Below are positions 11,445 to 39,687 of a stretch of DNA of 39,687 nucleotides, piece after piece. How positions within the stretch are numbered: the first letter of the stretch is position 1; each line of letters starts with the position of its first letter. A model generated the notes under the pieces. The model was not told the origin of the DNA and ran no database searches. It saw only the letters and a program-made list of their open reading frames with translations. The stretch is taken from IMG/VR virus record IMGVR_UViG_3300024518_003522, positions 1-39,687 of that record; one strand, 5' to 3'. A program made the position numbers and the translations under genes. Source of the stretch: a virus.

Positions 11445-12401
11445 ATGGCTCACTTATGGGTAAATGATAGTGATGTTCACTTCAGCCCTGAATTGTCGAA
11501 ATTCCTTCGATACTCGGCGCAACCGAATCTAAAATTCCGACAGTTTGCTGATGTGAAAGATGCCATGGGTAAAGATCAAGGCGATAGCTTTAACTTTCCC
11601 AAGGTTGCCAACGTGTCCACTATTGGTGGAACTTTGGTAGAAACAAATACTGTACCCCAAGCCAGTCAAACCATAACGAAAGGAACTCTTACTATTACCG
11701 AATACGGAAATAGTATTCCTTTCACTTTTAAACTTGATACATTATCTCAGTTTGATATTGAGATGATTATCGACAAAGGTTTGAAAGATGATATGGTTAA
11801 AGTTCTTGATGCCGCTGTACATGCTCAATTTGATGCATGTGCGCTTCGTGGTGTTGGAACTACGACTGCTGCAATAACCGTTACTACGGATGGGACAGCA
11901 ACAGCTACAAATACTTCAGTTTTAAACGAATTTCATATTCGTAAACTGAAACTTGAACTCGAAAAACGCAATGTCCCAACTTTTGATGGGGAAACTTATG
12001 TGTTTGTCGGTTCATTAGAAGCTATTGAAAGCTTAAATGGTGCTATGGTATCTATTAACCAATATACACAAGTTGGTTATGAAAAGATATTCAATGGCGA
12101 ACAAGGCATGGTTCATAACGTACGGTTAGTTAAAGACAACAACGCCACTCGTTTAACTTATGACTTGGCAGCTCGAACAACTGCCTCAAAATCATTCTCT
12201 GGAGGCGAATCTGGAGAAGGGTTTATGTTTGGTAAGGATACTGTTATGGAAGGTATGGCTACTCCAGAACAGATTCGAGCGAAAGAAGTAACAGACTACG
12301 GTCGATCTAAAGGTCTCGCATGGTATTTCTTAGGTGGTTGGAAGATCATCTGGGACGATGAACCAAATGCGAAAATCATTAAATGGGACTCAGCTGCCTA
12401 A
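11445..12401 (+). CDS. Major capsid protein, 318 aa, N4 gp56-like family
   Basis: The ATG has GGAGG nine bases upstream. The sequence resembles the N4 gp56-type HK97-fold capsid family: an N-terminal SPELSKFLRYSAQPNLKFRQF arm, the beta stretch QTITKGTLTITEYGNSIPFTF, a long helix IEMIIDKGLKDDMVKVLDAA, and a C-terminal GGWKIIWDDEPNAKIIKWDSA strand. Codon use is richer in G+C than surrounding genes, as expected for the most abundant protein. Position after the scaffold agrees. Confidence 0.88.
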   Translation: MAHLWVNDSDVHFSPELSKFLRYSAQPNLKFRQFADVKDAMGKDQGDSFNFPKVANVSTIGGTLVETNTVPQASQTITKGTLTITEYGNSIPFTFKLDTLSQFDIEMIIDKGLKDDMVKVLDAAVHAQFDACALRGVGTTTAAITVTTDGTATATNTSVLNEFHIRKLKLELEKRNVPTFDGETYVFVGSLEAIESLNGAMVSINQYTQVGYEKIFNGEQGMVHNVRLVKDNNATRLTYDLAARTTASKSFSGGESGEGFMFGKDTVMEGMATPEQIRAKEVTDYGRSKGLAWYFLGGWKIIWDDEPNAKIIKWDSAA

Positions 12402-12414
12402 AGGAGGCAATAAA

Positions 12415-12819
12415 ATGTCTAATGGATATTATGATGATCCGATTCAAAGTATAAATATTGCCGACGTGGCTGATATAAGTGTTCCGGGAACAGCTGCGGC
12501 TGATACTGAACTCTTACGAATACCACTTAATCGTGCAATAAAAAATGAAACAACTGCTCGCCTCACTCTTAAAACGGGTGGGACGGCTGATGGCCCCAAT
12601 GTTCTTATTGGTCGGTCGTTAGCTGGTACGGGTGCTGTTTCAAACATTGGAACTCACAATGTGGGAACCTCTGCCGATGACCTAACTTCTACCGTTACCT
12701 TAGCTCAAACCGATTGGTTGACTGGGGACGTGTTAGTTATTTCTAATGCGGCTGGTACTGCTGCGTCAACGCCAGTACTATATGCACTAACAATTGACTA
12801 CAAATCTGATTTCGACTAA
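12415..12819 (+). CDS. Candidate capsid decoration or head-completion protein, 134 aa
   Basis: I chose the ATG at 12415, behind AAAGGAGGCAATAAA, over the longer frame inside the capsid gene. The product is Ala/Thr/Gly-rich and beta-patterned (VADISVPGTAAADTELLRIP; DVLVISNAAGTAAST), like head decoration proteins encoded directly after capsid genes. It may be an outer capsid ornament and, with the sugar genes next to it, a possible glycosylation target. Function is inferred. Confidence 0.6.
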   Translation: MSNGYYDDPIQSINIADVADISVPGTAAADTELLRIPLNRAIKNETTARLTLKTGGTADGPNVLIGRSLAGTGAVSNIGTHNVGTSADDLTSTVTLAQTDWLTGDVLVISNAAGTAASTPVLYALTIDYKSDFD

Positions 12820-12829
12820 TCAGCAGTTC

Positions 12830-12854
12830 GAGGGTCTGTAAAACCCTCACAATT
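12830..12854 (+). terminator. Partial intrinsic terminator or attenuator after capsid genes
   Basis: A perfect GAGGGT/ACCCTC stem (12830-12835 with 12843-12848) has a seven-base loop and is followed by ACAATTTT. The U-tract is short and offset, so termination is probably incomplete. It lies between the very highly expressed capsid genes and the sugar island, where lower expression would be expected. Confidence 0.45.
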
Positions 12855-12868
12855 TTAAAGGTGGGAAC

Positions 12869-13900
12869 TTGAAGAAACCAAAATTATTAATTATCGCTTA
12901 CAGAGCTTGGGGCGATTGGCTTTATACGTGTCCAATTATTCCTTATCTCGCAGAAAAGTATGATTTATATTTAGAGTGTAATTGGAAAGTTTATAACTTA
13001 GTCTCTAATGATCCTAGATTTAAATGGGTGTCTTATTTTCTTTATGAACGTTATCCTCAGCATAAATGGGGACAACTATTTGAAGAGCGATGGAAAAAAT
13101 TAGAGACTGATCTTAAACCAGATAGAGTTCTTAATTTAAATGGTTCATTAGAAGTAGAGTGTATTACTCAATGGTTACAACCAGAGCATGAGTGGCCTTT
13201 AGATAAGAAGCGTAAGGTATTTGGAGCTCGTAATTTCTATGACGCAGTATTTAAACGATGTCAATTAGATATCCCGGAAAAGTTAAAAATAGATGAGATT
13301 TATTATTCTCAAGATGAAATCGATATTGTAGAAAAATGGCACAAACGCACTAAAGATAAATTTAAAATCTTAATGCCAATGACAGGAAGTACCAGTCAGA
13401 AAGTCTTACATTCATGGAAAGAATGGTCTAATTATTTTGTTCAACGATACCCTAACGCTGTAGTTTATTTAGTAGGTGATCATAGATGTCAGAAGTCAGT
13501 TAATGATGCTAATATAACACACCCACGTATAAAGAATATATGTGGTTTAGATGCCCCAATAAAACAAATTTTTTTAATGACAAAATATGCAGATTATGTG
13601 ATAGGACCTGAAACTGGAGTAGTTGTTTCTGCGGGGATGTGGGGCGTGCCTAAAACGATGTTATGCACAACTTCAAGTACTTATCAGTGTACAAAATATC
13701 ATAAAAATGATCATTCAATTCAGTCTCCAATGGCTTGCAGCCCTTGTTTTAGTGCCATTTATCATATAGAAGATTGTAGAGAAATGTATGGTGATTTAAA
13801 GAAGAAGATTCATTATCCAGCATGTTCAAAGTCATTTGATATTAAAAGGGTGGTGCCATTTATTGATGAGCAATACAAAAAGAAATTTTCAACAGTATAG
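12869..13900 (+). CDS. Family-9 (heptosyltransferase-like) glycosyltransferase, 343 aa
   Basis: The start is TTG at 12869 behind AAAGGTGGGAAC. The N-terminus reads KLLIIAYRAWGDWLYTCPII, matching the GT9 N-terminal lobe with its Gly-Asp. The C-terminal lobe has YVIGPETGVVVSAGMWGVPK, the nucleotide-sugar loop of ADP-heptose:LPS heptosyltransferases. The fold is GT-B and the donor is probably ADP-heptose, since the next gene makes a heptose phosphate. The acceptor is unknown: virion protein or host surface sugar. A second GT9 enzyme lies 1.1 kb downstream. Confidence 0.8.
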   Translation: MKKPKLLIIAYRAWGDWLYTCPIIPYLAEKYDLYLECNWKVYNLVSNDPRFKWVSYFLYERYPQHKWGQLFEERWKKLETDLKPDRVLNLNGSLEVECITQWLQPEHEWPLDKKRKVFGARNFYDAVFKRCQLDIPEKLKIDEIYYSQDEIDIVEKWHKRTKDKFKILMPMTGSTSQKVLHSWKEWSNYFVQRYPNAVVYLVGDHRCQKSVNDANITHPRIKNICGLDAPIKQIFLMTKYADYVIGPETGVVVSAGMWGVPKTMLCTTSSTYQCTKYHKNDHSIQSPMACSPCFSAIYHIEDCREMYGDLKKKIHYPACSKSFDIKRVVPFIDEQYKKKFSTV

Positions 13901-14447
13901 AGATTCATTAATTGATGCATTAGATGCAATTAATTACCATGAAATATATCAATTAATTGATATTATTAAAACTAGACTTGATTATGGTGGAAAATTAATA
14001 CTGTTTGGCAATGGTGGGAGTGCGTCCCAAGCTCAACACTTAGCCACAGAACTTATTTGTAGTTTTAAGAATAGAACACGTCCAAGTATACCAGCATTAG
14101 CATTAAACTCTGATATTGCTGCTTTAACGGCAATAAGCAATGATTTTTCATTTGAAGATATTTTTTCAAGGCAACTGGAATCTTTAACTGGCCCGTATGA
14201 TACAGTATTAGCTTTATCAACATCTGGCAATTCACCAAATGTTATTAAGGCATTAAAATTAGCTAATAAATTAAAGATACCAACAATAGGATTTACAGGT
14301 AAAGACGGTGGGAAAATGAAAGATCTCTGTAGTCAGTGTTTTATTGTGAATAGTAATGATACGGAGCATATTCAAGAAGCACATTTGGCCGTAGGGCATT
14401 TTATCTGTCAAGAGATTGAAAAAGATTTAGTGGCCTCGAAAGCTTAA
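13866..14447 (+). CDS. gmhA: Sedoheptulose-7-phosphate isomerase GmhA, 193 aa
   Basis: The start at 13866 overlaps the previous gene by 35 bases and has AAGGGTGG upstream; length matches bacterial GmhA (about 192). The SIS fold is clear: GNGGSASQAQHLATEL (48-63), then LSTSGNSPNV (117-126). Metal ligands known from E. coli GmhA (His61, Glu65, Gln172, His180) correspond to His58, Glu62, Gln170 and His178. It should convert sedoheptulose 7-phosphate to D-glycero-D-manno-heptose 7-phosphate, the first step toward ADP-heptose. No GmhB or HldE is present, so the host would finish the donor. A DiaA-like SIS protein is less likely because the metal ligands are intact. Confidence 0.85.
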   Translation: MSNTKRNFQQYRDSLIDALDAINYHEIYQLIDIIKTRLDYGGKLILFGNGGSASQAQHLATELICSFKNRTRPSIPALALNSDIAALTAISNDFSFEDIFSRQLESLTGPYDTVLALSTSGNSPNVIKALKLANKLKIPTIGFTGKDGGKMKDLCSQCFIVNSNDTEHIQEAHLAVGHFICQEIEKDLVASKA

Positions 14448-14450
14448 GCC

Positions 14451-14495
14451 CCCACCTTCTTAAGTGAGTACAGGCCACCCAATTTAGGAGGTGGG
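14451..14495 (+). promoter_or_regulatory. Hairpin able to hide the methyltransferase ribosome site
   Basis: CCCACCT (14451-14457) is perfectly complementary to AGGTGGG (14489-14495), which contains part of the AGGAGGTGGG ribosome site of the next gene. The loop is 31 bases. Folding would mask the site and lower translation of the methyltransferase. Confidence 0.45.
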
Positions 14496-14498
14496 ATT

Positions 14499-15050
14499 AT
14501 GGATTATAAAGGAATCTATGATAAAGAGTATTATGATAAGTATGTAGAGTTAGGAGCAACGCCATTAGCACATGCTATATATTCAGGAAGATGGGCATTA
14601 ATATTAAAGTATTGTAATAACGGTAAGATTTTAGACTATGGGTGTGGTCCTGGATTCTTTAATGCCCATGGGCCTAAAGAGTTTATTAAACTTAATTACG
14701 ATGTTAATCCTAATTGTGGATTTAGAGAACTCCCTAAAGAACAAATTGATATTTTAGCAATGTGGGATAGTATCGAACATATTCCTAATTTTTATGGGGA
14801 AATAAAGAAATTAGATGCCGATTGGTTATTCATAACCACACCTAATTTAGAATCAGTGGTAGAACCCATTATTCATTGGAAGCATTATCGACCTAAAGAA
14901 CACTTATTTGCGTTTGATAGGCATAGTTTACAAGTTATTTTAGCTGATCTTGGTTATCAAATTGTAGAAATGAATTATGATGAGGGTAAATTAAGAGATC
15001 CTAATAGACCACAGGCTATTCTAACTGTAGTAGCAAAGAAGGTCTCTTAA
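14499..15050 (+). CDS. Class I SAM-dependent methyltransferase, 183 aa
   Basis: The ATG follows AGGAGGTGGGATT. Motif I is ILDYGCGPGFF (residues about 44-54), with an acidic residue after the next strand in YDVNPN, and a post-I segment DILAMWDSIEHI typical of Methyltransf_11/23 enzymes, which often modify sugars or small molecules. It is shorter than many but complete. Lying between two glycosyltransferases and after GmhA, it probably methylates a sugar or glycan. Its stop overlaps the next start (TAATG). Confidence 0.8.
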   Translation: MDYKGIYDKEYYDKYVELGATPLAHAIYSGRWALILKYCNNGKILDYGCGPGFFNAHGPKEFIKLNYDVNPNCGFRELPKEQIDILAMWDSIEHIPNFYGEIKKLDADWLFITTPNLESVVEPIIHWKHYRPKEHLFAFDRHSLQVILADLGYQIVEMNYDEGKLRDPNRPQAILTVVAKKVS

Positions 15051-16069
15051 TGTTATTTGCTGCTAAAAGAAAGCCTAAAGAGAAACAAAAGAAACTATGT
15101 GTTGTTCGATATGGAGCTTGGGGAGATGCATTAATGGTGTCTCCTGTTTTTAAGTACTATAAAGAACAAGATTGGTATGTAATTCTTAATTGTACTCAAA
15201 AGTGTTTTGATATATTAAGAACTAATCCATATATTGATGCCTTTATAGTTCAAGAAGACGGTGAAATTCCCTTAGATAAATTAGAAGAACATTGGAAACA
15301 ACTTGAAAAACAAGTAGATAAAGTTGTGAACTTTAGTGGATCTATAGAAACTCAATTATTAGTTTCGTATAAACAACCAGAATTTGGATGGACTAAAAAA
15401 CAATTAGATAAACGTTGTAATATAAATTACTATGATCATACAATGAAAGTTGCTGGGTTTCCTGAGAAAACGGGAGAGAAAGGCGAGATTTATTTTACAA
15501 AGAATGAAGAGAAATGGGCTCGAAAGTTAACCAAAAAGCATGATGGATTTAATGTAGTTGTTTGTTTAACTGGAAGTTCTGTACATAAAATTTATCCTTA
15601 TATGGATGCCCTAATTAATGCAATTGTTGACGGTATCCCTGATTCGCATATATTTTTAGTGGGTGAACCTGGAGCTAAAGGCATTATAGATAAGCATCCT
15701 CAAATAACTGATTTTTGTGGAAAGATTGATATTAGAAAGTCTTTTGTCCTGACCAAACACATGAATTTAGTTATTAGTCCCGAAACAAGTGTGTTAGTTG
15801 CTGCAGGTATTTATGACACCCCAAAGGTCGCTTTATTATCACATGGAAGCAAAGAGAATGTAACTAAATACTATGTCAATTGTCATACAATTGTTCAAAA
15901 TGTTTCATGTCAACCTTGCCATAAGCTACACTATACACGCGATACCTGTCCAGTTGTTCCGGACACCAAGTTTCCAATTTGTATGGGATTATTGCATCCC
16001 AAAGAGATTATACCTGCAATTGAAGAAGAATATATTAAATGGAAGAAAAACCTTTTAGGAGTTAAATAA
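15050..16069 (+). CDS. Second family-9 (heptosyltransferase-like) glycosyltransferase, 339 aa
   Basis: It shares plan and motifs with the first: KLCVVRYGAWGDALMVSPVF at the N-terminus, VVNFSGSIETQLL mid-protein (compare VLNLNGSLEVECI), and LVISPETSVLVAAGIYDTPK in the nucleotide-sugar loop. Both also share a Cys-rich C-terminal segment (SCQPCHKLHYTRDTC; compare SPCFSAIYHIEDC). The two are ancient paralogues. Two transferases suggest at least a two-sugar chain or two acceptors. It ends in a TAATG overlap with the tail adaptor gene. Confidence 0.8.
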   Translation: MLFAAKRKPKEKQKKLCVVRYGAWGDALMVSPVFKYYKEQDWYVILNCTQKCFDILRTNPYIDAFIVQEDGEIPLDKLEEHWKQLEKQVDKVVNFSGSIETQLLVSYKQPEFGWTKKQLDKRCNINYYDHTMKVAGFPEKTGEKGEIYFTKNEEKWARKLTKKHDGFNVVVCLTGSSVHKIYPYMDALINAIVDGIPDSHIFLVGEPGAKGIIDKHPQITDFCGKIDIRKSFVLTKHMNLVISPETSVLVAAGIYDTPKVALLSHGSKENVTKYYVNCHTIVQNVSCQPCHKLHYTRDTCPVVPDTKFPICMGLLHPKEIIPAIEEEYIKWKKNLLGVK

Positions 16070-16956
16070 TGGCAATCCCTACACAGCCAACTGAAACAAG
16101 CATTGTAACAAAATCATATAGACTTTATGGTAAATCTCCAACTTCTACGGAATTAACTGAAGCTATTTCAGACGGTATTGCTATGGTTAAAAGTGATCTA
16201 ATGAACAGTGGGCGAGAGTGGTCTTTTCTTAGACGAACTGCTTATAAACCTATGGCTATTGGGGTTAGTCGGATTCAAGCTCCTACTGACTATTCTAAAT
16301 TAATCTCAGCTGTTCTTTTAGATGGGGTGAGATCTGGTACTGCGCAAGCTGGAACAAGTACTACAATTACATTGGCTGCAGCCGATAATGGAGGCGCCGA
16401 AGATAGTCGTGGGAAAATATTAGTTATAAAATCAGGCACAGGCTCAGAACAAGCCCTTCAAATTAAATCTTTTGACGCTAGCACTAAAGTAGCAACTATG
16501 GAAGAAGCGTGGACAACTACTCCAGATTCCAGTTCTACTTATTTAGTTGCAGATGATCATAAGGAACTGCACTTACAACAGATTTGGAATTTCGATGAAC
16601 TACAGTTACCTTTTCTTTCAGGAGCTCCTGTTAACATATACCATCAAACTGATGATGTAGAAGGAGATTTTAAATTTGATTATACACCTGATAAAGAATA
16701 TGTAGTTCAATTACGCTATTATAGTGACCTACGAAAAGAAGATACTGATACTGGAACAAATACACGATATGCCACAATCCTTCGAAAACTAGAACAAGTT
16801 TTAGTTCAAGGAGTACTTGTTTGGCTACTTCAAGATGATGGACGTGTTCAATTTGAATTGCCTAAATACTCTCGTATGCTTGCTTTAACTGAAGGACAAT
16901 TTTTATACCCTAATAATGCACGTCAAAAAGCTGAATTAGCTGAGGATGCATACTAA
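16069..16956 (+). CDS. Head-to-tail adaptor (podovirus tail accessory) protein, 295 aa
   Basis: The N-terminal half begins MAIPTQPTETSIVTKSYRLYG and has AISDGIAMVKSDLMNSGREW, the helical core of podovirus gp4-like adaptors that bind below the portal. A beta domain seems inserted at about residues 90-163 (AGTSTTITLAAADNGGAED through VATMEEAWTTTPDSSSTY); similar modules recur in phage tail proteins. Position next to the nozzle protein agrees. Family assignment is by pattern. Confidence 0.75.
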   Translation: MAIPTQPTETSIVTKSYRLYGKSPTSTELTEAISDGIAMVKSDLMNSGREWSFLRRTAYKPMAIGVSRIQAPTDYSKLISAVLLDGVRSGTAQAGTSTTITLAAADNGGAEDSRGKILVIKSGTGSEQALQIKSFDASTKVATMEEAWTTTPDSSSTYLVADDHKELHLQQIWNFDELQLPFLSGAPVNIYHQTDDVEGDFKFDYTPDKEYVVQLRYYSDLRKEDTDTGTNTRYATILRKLEQVLVQGVLVWLLQDDGRVQFELPKYSRMLALTEGQFLYPNNARQKAELAEDAY

Positions 16957-25343: not shown

Positions 25344-25847
25344 TCATTTTAGTCCTATATGAGGCATATCTTTAAGCTTCTTCCAATCTCCACCCCACTC
25401 TAATTTTATTCCAGTCTCCTTACTCACCTTCTTTATAATCTTACCTAATGGTTTATATAATGATACAGCCCAAGTAATACTATTTAAATACGGATCTTTT
25501 ACAGCCGCATCAAGTGCCTTGCTTGGATAATAATTATGCTTTCCTTTCTTCTTATATCCATCTGCATACGTAACTATTTTCCCCGGTTTTGTGCGCCCTT
25601 GTTCGTATATGGCCTTCTGTTTTTTGGGGTGCCTAAATACATCAGTAAGTACAAGAGTATATCCGGGTCGTTTTAACCTATATTGTTCACGTATTAATCT
25701 AAATGCAGTTTGTAATTTAGGATCAGCATCAGATAATTTACGAGAAGACTTCTTTGGTAGACCACGTAATAATTCTCTTGTTGCCTCTTTAGGAGACTTA
25801 TCAAACTTAAATAGTTCTTTTATCGCCTGTAATATCTCTTTTAACAT
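25344..25847 (-). CDS. M15-family peptidase endolysin (L-alanyl-D-glutamate peptidase type), 167 aa
   Basis: The ATG follows GGGAGGTAGTAG. Zinc ligands fit the VanY/M15C pattern: His104 and Asp113 in KHNYYPSKALD, and His163 in WGGDWKKLKDMPHIGL, with the family's LTDVFRHPKKQ and YEQGRTKPG elements before. The enzyme would cut peptide links in peptidoglycan at lysis. There is no signal peptide, so it needs a holin; several small membrane proteins lie within 2 kb. It overlaps the upstream Cys/His gene by 41 bases. Confidence 0.88.
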   Translation of the reverse strand: MLKEILQAIKELFKFDKSPKEATRELLRGLPKKSSRKLSDADPKLQTAFRLIREQYRLKRPGYTLVLTDVFRHPKKQKAIYEQGRTKPGKIVTYADGYKKKGKHNYYPSKALDAAVKDPYLNSITWAVSLYKPLGKIIKKVSKETGIKLEWGGDWKKLKDMPHIGLK

Positions 25848-37704: not shown

Positions 37705-38088
37705 TTATTTTCCCTCCCTGAAATCAGGTATTGATTTTATTAACTTCTTTACTGCTTGTTTTATTAGTTGACTTACTCTTTGTTGCGAAATATTTAATTT
37801 AGTTGCTATCTCTGTTTGTGTAAACCCTTTACAAGTTGCTTGCATTACTTGTCGTTGTTGAGGTGTTAACATTGGAAAATCCGATTCAATTAAACTATGA
37901 GCAAAAAATTGTTTCATATTATAAGCTTCATCCATGCCTTGCTTTTGTTCTAAATATTGGTTACTCACAATAACTGCTGGCTCATTAACCCATTTTTTCC
38001 CATGTTTTACATACAAAACATTCTCTTTATCCACATCAGGGCTATTCTCTATTTGTTTTCTTGTAACTCGTCTGATCTTATCCGCCAT
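37705..38088 (-). CDS. Sigma-70 region-4-like HTH regulator, 127 aa
   Basis: Residues about 74-120 (LTPQQRQVMQATCKGFTQTE, then IATKLNISQQRVSQLIKQA) form a sigma region 4 or LuxR-type helix-turn-helix. No region 2 exists, so it is not a full sigma factor. As a phage gene early in the replication block, it may redirect host RNA polymerase to late promoters. This role is inferred. It overlaps the upstream gene by 40 bases. Confidence 0.72.
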   Translation of the reverse strand: MADKIRRVTRKQIENSPDVDKENVLYVKHGKKWVNEPAVIVSNQYLEQKQGMDEAYNMKQFFAHSLIESDFPMLTPQQRQVMQATCKGFTQTEIATKLNISQQRVSQLIKQAVKKLIKSIPDFREGK

Positions 38089-38595: not shown

Positions 38596-38906
38596 TAGTC
38601 TATTACCGCGCGTTCCATATCTTTTAGATAATCATATTCTTTAACAATTCCCACTTCATATATACCAATAGGAATAGTTTGCGTGTGATGTTCTTCATGT
38701 GTGAGATCTACAGGTTTAGTTACTTTAAGATAGGACTTCCCATCTTTTTCATAAAACATAGAATTCACTGTATCTTTAATTCTATGTGCATGCCCAGTTA
38801 CTTCTCCATATGCCAAAATAATATGCCCTTTATCTAATTCTTTTTTATTAATGTCTTTTGGTAAACTATCAATTTGTTTTAATAATACATCACCTTGTTG
38901 TCTCAT
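38595..38906 (-). CDS. GEVTGHAH protein, usual neighbour of DUF6745, 103 aa
   Basis: The ATG follows GAGGTGCTAAC and overlaps the previous stop (ATGA). It carries LAYGEVTGHAHRI and LTHEEHHTQTIPIGIYEVGI, a His-rich pattern I recognise from uncharacterised bacterial proteins encoded next to DUF6745 genes, along with the MRQQGDVLL start. The HAH and HEEHH clusters suggest a metal-binding cupin-like barrel. The pair moves together, so a joint function with the SQV-repeat protein is probable. Confidence 0.65.
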   Translation of the reverse strand: MRQQGDVLLKQIDSLPKDINKKELDKGHIILAYGEVTGHAHRIKDTVNSMFYEKDGKSYLKVTKPVDLTHEEHHTQTIPIGIYEVGIVKEYDYLKDMERAVID

Positions 38907-39687
38907 GTTAGCACCTCGGGTATCCAGTTAGATTTTAAGTCTCCTGCTCTCCAATTTAAAGCCTCTTGCACAGTTTTACATTCTCTGCCTACACCTTCTA
39001 CGTGCCATGTTTTAATAGAAGGATTTCTCATTTTTAAATATCTACAATCTTTAATCTCCGAAGATAAATTAAGAGTTAATAATTCATAGTCTCCTTTTTT
39101 ATCAATTTGTTTTGCCCCCATTTTATTAATAACAATATCTATCCCTAATTTACGAATTAATTCTCTACGTTGTTCTACATTTTCAATACTTAATATATCT
39201 TTTCGTGTTATATTTCCAATTGATTTGTTAATAAACCATTTAGGAACACTAACACCATTTAACACATAATATGCCTCCCCATTTTTCCATTTATAAGCGG
39301 GGCCATTATTACAATGAGATTGTCCTTGGTTATTAAATTTAATAGTTTCTGGATAATCACAAGTTAAAATTGCATTATTAAACCAGCAAGTAAAATAGCC
39401 GAATTTTTGTAGTATATTAGTATATAAATTTAATTGCGGGCCCAGTTTTAATATTTGATTAAAATAGTCATAAAAACTTACCCAACTAGAATCAGAATTT
39501 ATATTACTTTCATATACATGTATATATTTCATATCTTTTATTTGCGACCTCACTTGCGACGCCACTTGCGACCCCACTTGCGACCCCACTTGCGACCACA
39601 CTTGCGACTCTACTTGCGACCTCACTTGCGACCTCACTTGCGACGCCACTTGCGACCCCACTTGCGACTCTACTTGCGACCACACTT
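38903..39687 (-). CDS. SQV-repeat protein with DUF6745 domain, partial at right edge
   Basis: The frame is open to the window edge; the GTG at 39683-39685 is a repeat codon and not a supported start. About 50 visible residues are four-residue repeats (x-SQV), then KYIHVYESNINSDSSWVSFY begins the DUF6745 domain with HCNNGPAYKWKNGEAYYVLN, NVEQRRELIRKLG and the C-terminal GRECKTVQEALNWRAG. The family occurs in bacteria and some phages with similar repeat arrays; its role is unknown. The array, when extended, may form a regular helix or solenoid. The N-terminus may be the fragment at the left edge (1-86). Confidence 0.75.
   Translation of the reverse strand, partial: VWSQVESQVGSQVASQVRSQVRSQVESQVWSQVGSQVGSQVASQVRSQIKDMKYIHVYESNINSDSSWVSFYDYFNQILKLGPQLNLYTNILQKFGYFTCWFNNAILTCDYPETIKFNNQGQSHCNNGPAYKWKNGEAYYVLNGVSVPKWFINKSIGNITRKDILSIENVEQRRELIRKLGIDIVINKMGAKQIDKKGDYELLTLNLSSEIKDCRYLKMRNPSIKTWHVEGVGRECKTVQEALNWRAGDLKSNWIPEVLT
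39541..39687. repeat. Tandem array of 12-base units (CTTGCGAC core), at least 12 copies, cut by the window edge
   Basis: Each unit keeps the codons for Ser-Gln-Val and varies one codon, on the coding strand TGG, GAG, GGG, GCG or AGG. The Val codon is GTA before both GAG units and GTG elsewhere, except for the last unit, which has ATA. The order W-E-G-A-R-R-E-W-G-G-A-R suggests unit duplication by slippage or recombination. Units are multiples of three, so copy-number change alters length without frameshift. Confidence 0.9.

Follow-up and report, generated by a model that had tools for sequence, protein, structure and literature searches.

A glycosyltransferase locus conserved beside the major capsid gene of a podovirus lineage, a probable virion-glycosylation cassette

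Introduction

Virion glycosylation has been reported for the mycobacteriophages Che8 and Rita (Freeman et al. 2023, as cited in PMC11256854 and PMC12619734), and in the related phage Maravista the glycosyltransferase genes lie close to the genome's 3' end (PMC11256854). Among bacterial enzymes, TibC is a protein heptosyltransferase that uses ADP-D,D-heptose as donor and possesses a four-cysteine iron finger and an N-terminal beta-barrel covering residues 1–97 (PMC4358343).

Here, we analysed a 39,687-base virus record (the window, i.e. the whole stretch of DNA, on whose numbering all ORF coordinates are given), in which a GT9-fold glycosyltransferase, named GT2, is encoded between the major capsid protein (MCP) and a head-tail adaptor candidate. 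The likeness to Che8 and Rita, as these are presented in the citing papers, lies in phage-encoded glycosyltransferases, which in those phages are linked to capsid-protein glycans and in the window would be so. The window locus differs from the arrangement in Maravista by the position of the GT9 enzyme between MCP and adaptor and by the accompanying accessory sugar genes and, in the window phage, gmhA. TibC is a GT9-fold relative of GT2 (Foldseek 4.5e-9) and, as a protein O-heptosyltransferase, provides a precedent for a protein as acceptor of a GT9 enzyme. However, the two proteins share only ~11–12% identity, the spacing of their cysteines differs (C287/C290/C300/C311 in GT2 versus 339/342/358/370 in TibC), and GT2 is devoid of the N-terminal barrel (~97 residues), its model entering the GT domain at residue 15, which places it outside the BAHT (TibC) group. 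GT2 also has the GT9 fold and the GD motif of WaaC and WaaF, but its sequence has diverged and it is linked to a capsid gene instead of an LPS locus. Serotype-conversion gtr cassettes, in turn, comprise a flippase and a membrane-bound bactoprenol glucosyltransferase, neither of which was recognized by Pfam among the four proteins encoded between the decoration and adaptor genes. A full-text literature search, with most subscription papers outside its coverage, returned no description of a capsid-linked, swappable GT9 locus. Our results suggest that such viruses glycosylate their own shells and can change the sugars as bacteria change surface type.

Organization of the locus

The anchor gene of the locus encodes an MCP of the N4-gp56/HK97 type (11445–12401, plus strand, as for all genes of the locus; PHROG 1357 major head protein, 1.8e-18; TIGR04387, 4.7e-15). 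It is followed by a gene for a decoration or cement candidate of ~134 amino acids (12415–12819), which belongs to a family conserved beside the MCP and whose start codon was assigned from AAAGGAGG, 7 nt upstream. Next come the genes for GT1, a GT9-like glycosyltransferase of 343 amino acids (12869–13900), a GmhA-type sedoheptulose-7-phosphate isomerase (13866–14447, from the ATG at 13866; the listed ORF starts at a TTG at 13836), a SAM-dependent methyltransferase (MT, 14499–15050) and GT2, 339 amino acids long (15050–16069). The head-tail adaptor candidate (16069–16956) occupies the position of the "head completion adaptor" of Vibrio phage 1.232.O. The sequence-only reading had placed these four sugar genes inside the virion block, partly overlapping and in the same direction, with the decoration candidate on one side and the tail adaptor on the other, and the ORF positions bear this out.

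The overlap between GT1 and gmhA amounts to 35–65 nt, while one base is common to each of the pairs MT/GT2 and GT2/adaptor (TAATG), the first base of the adaptor gene being part of the GT2 stop codon (16069). These one-base overlaps would couple the translation of GT2 to that of the adaptor, pointing to late co-translation. The GC content of the cassette genes (0.33) is slightly lower than that of their neighbours (0.36–0.44), a difference that is not decisive. A hairpin (GAGGGT-7nt-ACCCTC, then ACAATTTT) is located between the decoration gene and GT1 (12830–12848, plus strand); it is a possible attenuator that may damp expression downstream of the decoration gene. Promoter and terminator scans gave matches at chance level only. 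In PTXU04, an annotated terminator lies at a comparable place.

GT2 is a core gene of the capsid lineage

Relatives of the window MCP were collected in 80 loci (MCP-first set), and 42 intervals were visible from the MCP down to an adaptor or closure gene. GT2 was found between MCP and adaptor in 40 of them, but not in L070 and Vibrio phage 431E45.1. In the opposite direction, a search with a GT2 profile yielded 80 IMG/VR loci from 421 relatives, and the MCP family was upstream in 62 of the 63 newly fetched viral loci with enough upstream DNA, at a median distance of 2.1 kb. The same was true for 12 of 15 loci with enough upstream DNA in a collection of bacterial and archaeal genomes and, when starting from GT1 in IMG/VR, for 42 of 46, these sets overlapping partly and including near-duplicates. 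The gene order is fixed (MCP-deco-GT1-MT-GT2-adaptor). GT2 is a near-universal core gene of this capsid lineage, at a conserved locus.

Apparent prophages are among the genome matches, in cultured strains of Paraburkholderia (e.g. Paraburkholderia sp. C35, L094, and P. rhynchosiae WSM 3937, L091), Aromatoleum (e.g. A. anaerobium LuFRes1, L086) and Pseudothauera; their boundaries were not found by searching four host genomes for integrases. One MCP-GT2 locus (L084) is on a contig that was binned, perhaps erroneously, as Thaumarchaeota and need not come from an archaeal virus. Isolates carrying the window-type MCP have no annotated glycosyltransferase in the interval, so that at least this lineage of cultured relatives can do without the cassette. 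Among 50,697 records of isolated phages, GT1 and GT2 were without match.

The window GT2 scored 20.0 bits against the GT9 family of Pfam (PF01075, gathering cutoff 22), which was matched at E<=0.01 by 14 of 28 members of the GT2 family, the best at 2e-15. Single-sequence searches of the PDB with GT2 produced weak matches only, mostly to alphaRep, so that a family profile and a fold search were needed. The family profile retrieved the GT9 protein 3tov (6.5e-7) and WaaF (1psw, 7.6e-6). The AlphaFold (AF2) model of GT2 (pLDDT 94.7) presents a GT-B fold closest to GT9 structures, and Foldseek found it to resemble 3tov (2.1e-14), WaaF (1psw, 2.8e-12), 6dfe (1.6e-9), WaaC and TibC. Residue D26, which aligns with the GD motif of 1psw and 3tov, is invariant, together with E100 and K180, in 113 of 113 sequences (loci non-redundant by MCP sequence), and the cysteine quartet is conserved in every sequence with residues at these positions (110–111 of the 113). 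With dN/dS values of ~0.03–0.24 in the pairs where it could be computed, GT2 appears to be under purifying selection and, given its invariant catalytic-type residues, looks like an active enzyme. Congruence between the MCP and GT2 trees is positive but weak (Mantel 0.30), which fits exchange at GT2.

GT1 follows the decoration protein

GT1 had zero matches in Pfam and its single-sequence PDB search was also empty. GT1 and GT2 are diverged paralogues (~31% by blastp) with a common set of motifs, and a family alignment revealed D16, K178, E248 and C290/C293/C303/C319 as invariant in GT1. Its relatives sit directly behind decoration genes. In the MCP-first loci, GT1 was present in 12 of 12 with the deco19/deco32 decoration family and in 0 of 34 without it; the pooled set gave 40 of 42 and 0 of 82, respectively, both counts being uncorrected for phylogeny and concerning two genes that are neighbours. 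The pair was found on several portal and adaptor backgrounds, hinting at co-transfer. The decoration protein itself was modeled by AF2 (pLDDT 83) as an all-beta protein, a predicted beta-sandwich with weak Foldseek matches to jelly-roll-type folds, and is a second candidate acceptor beside the MCP.

The isomerase, the methyltransferase and the donor sugar

GmhA was clearly recognized, both by Pfam (SIS_2, 4.7e-21) and in the PDB (1tk9, 2e-40). Its score is below the TIGR00441 equivalog cutoff (165 versus 209 bits), and it is thus considered as GmhA-type and not as a curated equivalog. Alignments with 1tk9 and 2xbl revealed that H58, E62, Q170 and H178 (numbered from the ATG at 13866), the metal ligands of GmhA enzymes, are all present. 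The protein shares its SIS domain and ligands with bacterial GmhA and clearly matches solved structures of these enzymes, but is phage-borne, in a virion operon, and falls under the NCBI cutoff. MT matched Methyltransf_23 (1.6e-11) and PHROG 6564 (2.6e-21) and contains the motif DYGCGPG, whereas a single-sequence PDB search with it found nothing. These comparisons agree with the enzymes initially named for this locus: two GT9-type glycosyltransferases, a GmhA with its metal ligands and a methyltransferase.

We also considered gmhA as a core gene of the locus, which was rejected when an IMG/VR scan with GmhA returned a single contig, which over this region is identical to the window. In the nearest relatives (MCP 84%), gmhA is missing and the order is deco-GT1-MT-GT2-adaptor. 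As gmhA is limited to the window phage and that contig, the inserted element is this gene, which overlaps GT1 at the latter's 3' end. The idea of a whole sugar island inserted in the virion block, proposed in the sequence-only reading, must consequently be reduced to this one gene, GT1-MT-GT2 being common to close relatives. The best reading of gmhA is that of a lineage-specific precursor booster. Membership of GT9 does not by itself fix the donor sugar. In the window, the donor is probably ADP-heptose, as favoured by the GT9 fold together with gmhA, a gene that the relatives lack.

LPS is the target of those GT9 enzymes that are best known; the nearest characterized ones, WaaC and WaaF, build the LPS core, and gmhA feeds the LPS heptose pathway. 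This could mean that the enzymes modify host LPS or another surface glycan late in infection, blocking superinfection or reducing the loss of progeny on debris, with the capsid linkage reflecting late expression. We consider this unlikely, given that the linkage to a single MCP family is nearly strict even among widely diverged phages, that GT1 tracks the type of decoration protein, and that Pfam recognized no flippase or membrane glycosyltransferase in the set of four proteins. In the apparent prophages, moreover, a position in the late operon would fit lysogenic conversion poorly.

Exchange of the glycan cassette

In relatives, the MCP-adaptor interval encodes GT4 and GT2-family glycosyltransferases, GT17, a sulfotransferase, GalE/RmlD-type epimerases, UGD/hexapeptide proteins, a DegT aminotransferase, radical SAM enzymes, and rhamnosyl O-methyltransferase-like and Methyltransf_13/14 proteins. 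Glycosyltransferase and methyltransferase are also found fused, either way round: L013 has GT1-MT, and MT-GT2 is seen in L016 and others. The clearest case of exchange is provided by two near-clonal phages (L109 and L116), whose scaffold, MCP, initial part of the cassette and adaptor are 98–100% identical, against only 62–86% from the first GT2 codon to the adaptor, the sole stretch that is swapped. In both, a sulfotransferase-like gene lies right before GT2 (L109:7372–7998 and L116:4599–5228), and the glycan of this clade may thus be sulfated. The contig 3300030103_003364 (L110/L117) carries two different GT2 cassette alleles, one per end, an indication that the two are present in a single sample.

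Such variable content, the lineage-specific gmhA and an HNH endonuclease ORF inserted at the 5' end of GT2 in place of its first codons (L138:7437–7940) could also be expected of passenger genes, accumulated at a recombination hot spot in a permissive MCP-adaptor gap and playing no role in the virion. This is quite improbable for a near-universal GT2 under apparent purifying selection with invariant catalytic-type residues, in a locus of fixed gene order.

In a clade without recognized decoration gene (L018–L065), MCP and GT2 are separated by a long ORF (family c4, e.g. L041:8323–9876) that is hypervariable and of low complexity; there, the DNA of L019 and L020 is 48–69% identical compared with ~95% in the MCP. 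The product of this ORF is a possible alternative acceptor.

A Thr-rich loop of the MCP as candidate acceptor

Inspection of the MCP alignment pointed to a Thr-rich loop (residues 139–155, TTTAAITVTTDGTATAT, 11859–11909, plus strand) as the candidate glycosylation site, based on the residue counts of its columns. Positions 141, 147, 148 and 151 are mostly Thr or Ser in phages bearing the glycosyltransferase (~0.77–0.94 of sequences). The five MCPs examined from phages without it (two Vibrio phages, two E. coli phages and L070) all have Ala or Pro at position 141, Glu at 147, and either Ala or a gap at 148. These five form one clade, so the contrast corresponds to a single evolutionary event; the loop is kept in GT-bearing prophages of Betaproteobacteria, which are among their nearest relatives in the tree. 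An N-glycosylation sequon in this loop was discarded since the Asn of NGT alternates with Asp, which makes Thr the more likely acceptor.

Proposed role in virion glycosylation

We propose that the segment is probably a virion-glycosylation cassette of a podovirus lineage acting on the MCP, the decoration protein or both; activity, acceptor, donor and benefit are deduced from the genes. The view that the phage glycosylates its own particle, already put forward from the window sequence, is strengthened by the reciprocal MCP-GT2 linkage, the co-occurrence of GT1 with the decoration protein and the loss of the Thr loop in phages without glycosyltransferase, all of which are genomic observations. 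GT2 would be a soluble GT9-fold enzyme expressed from the late operon, produced together with capsid and adaptor as capsids form, and would use a nucleotide sugar to glycosylate Ser or Thr residues in a virion protein. The MCP is the most likely acceptor, with loop 139–155 as candidate site. GT1 would most likely glycosylate the co-occurring decoration protein or extend its glycan, and the methyltransferase would methylate, and thereby cap, the sugar. In the window phage, GmhA would raise the first step of the heptose pathway, with host enzymes carrying out the remaining steps to ADP-heptose. Changes in the cassette would then alter the surface chemistry of the particle.

That the enzymes glycosylate phage DNA into hypermodified bases as a protection against restriction is hardly credible: DNA-modifying phage glycosyltransferases are known (cited in PMC12619734), but the present genes lie in the virion block, away from the minus-strand replication genes, the right-arm proteins that were scanned gave no match to a base-modifying or thymidylate-synthase-like enzyme, and the fold is that of GT9. 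None of the three alternatives considered, host-surface modification, passenger genes and DNA glycosylation, explains the reciprocal linkage as well as virion glycosylation.

A more specific scheme for virion glycosylation, which we put forward tentatively and hold to be possible rather than probable, is that throughout a broad lineage of podoviruses and prophages the GT9 core O-glycosylates the Thr loop of the MCP (O-heptosylation in the window phage), while the cassette is swapped in an O-antigen-like manner to give switchable surface types. If true, sugar-coated capsids would be normal rather than exceptional in a widespread and mostly uncultured group of phages, capsid surface chemistry would evolve through cassette exchange, and phage "LPS genes" found near capsid genes should be re-labelled as particle-modification genes.

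Other features of the window

Three further features were noted on the minus strand. An M15-type endolysin is encoded at 25344–25847, and a small protein resembling sigma-factor/HTH families at 37705–38088. At the end of the contig, about a dozen 12-bp tandem repeats (CACTTGCGACCC-like, 39515–39682) lie within an ORF (38903–39685) that matches DUF6745.
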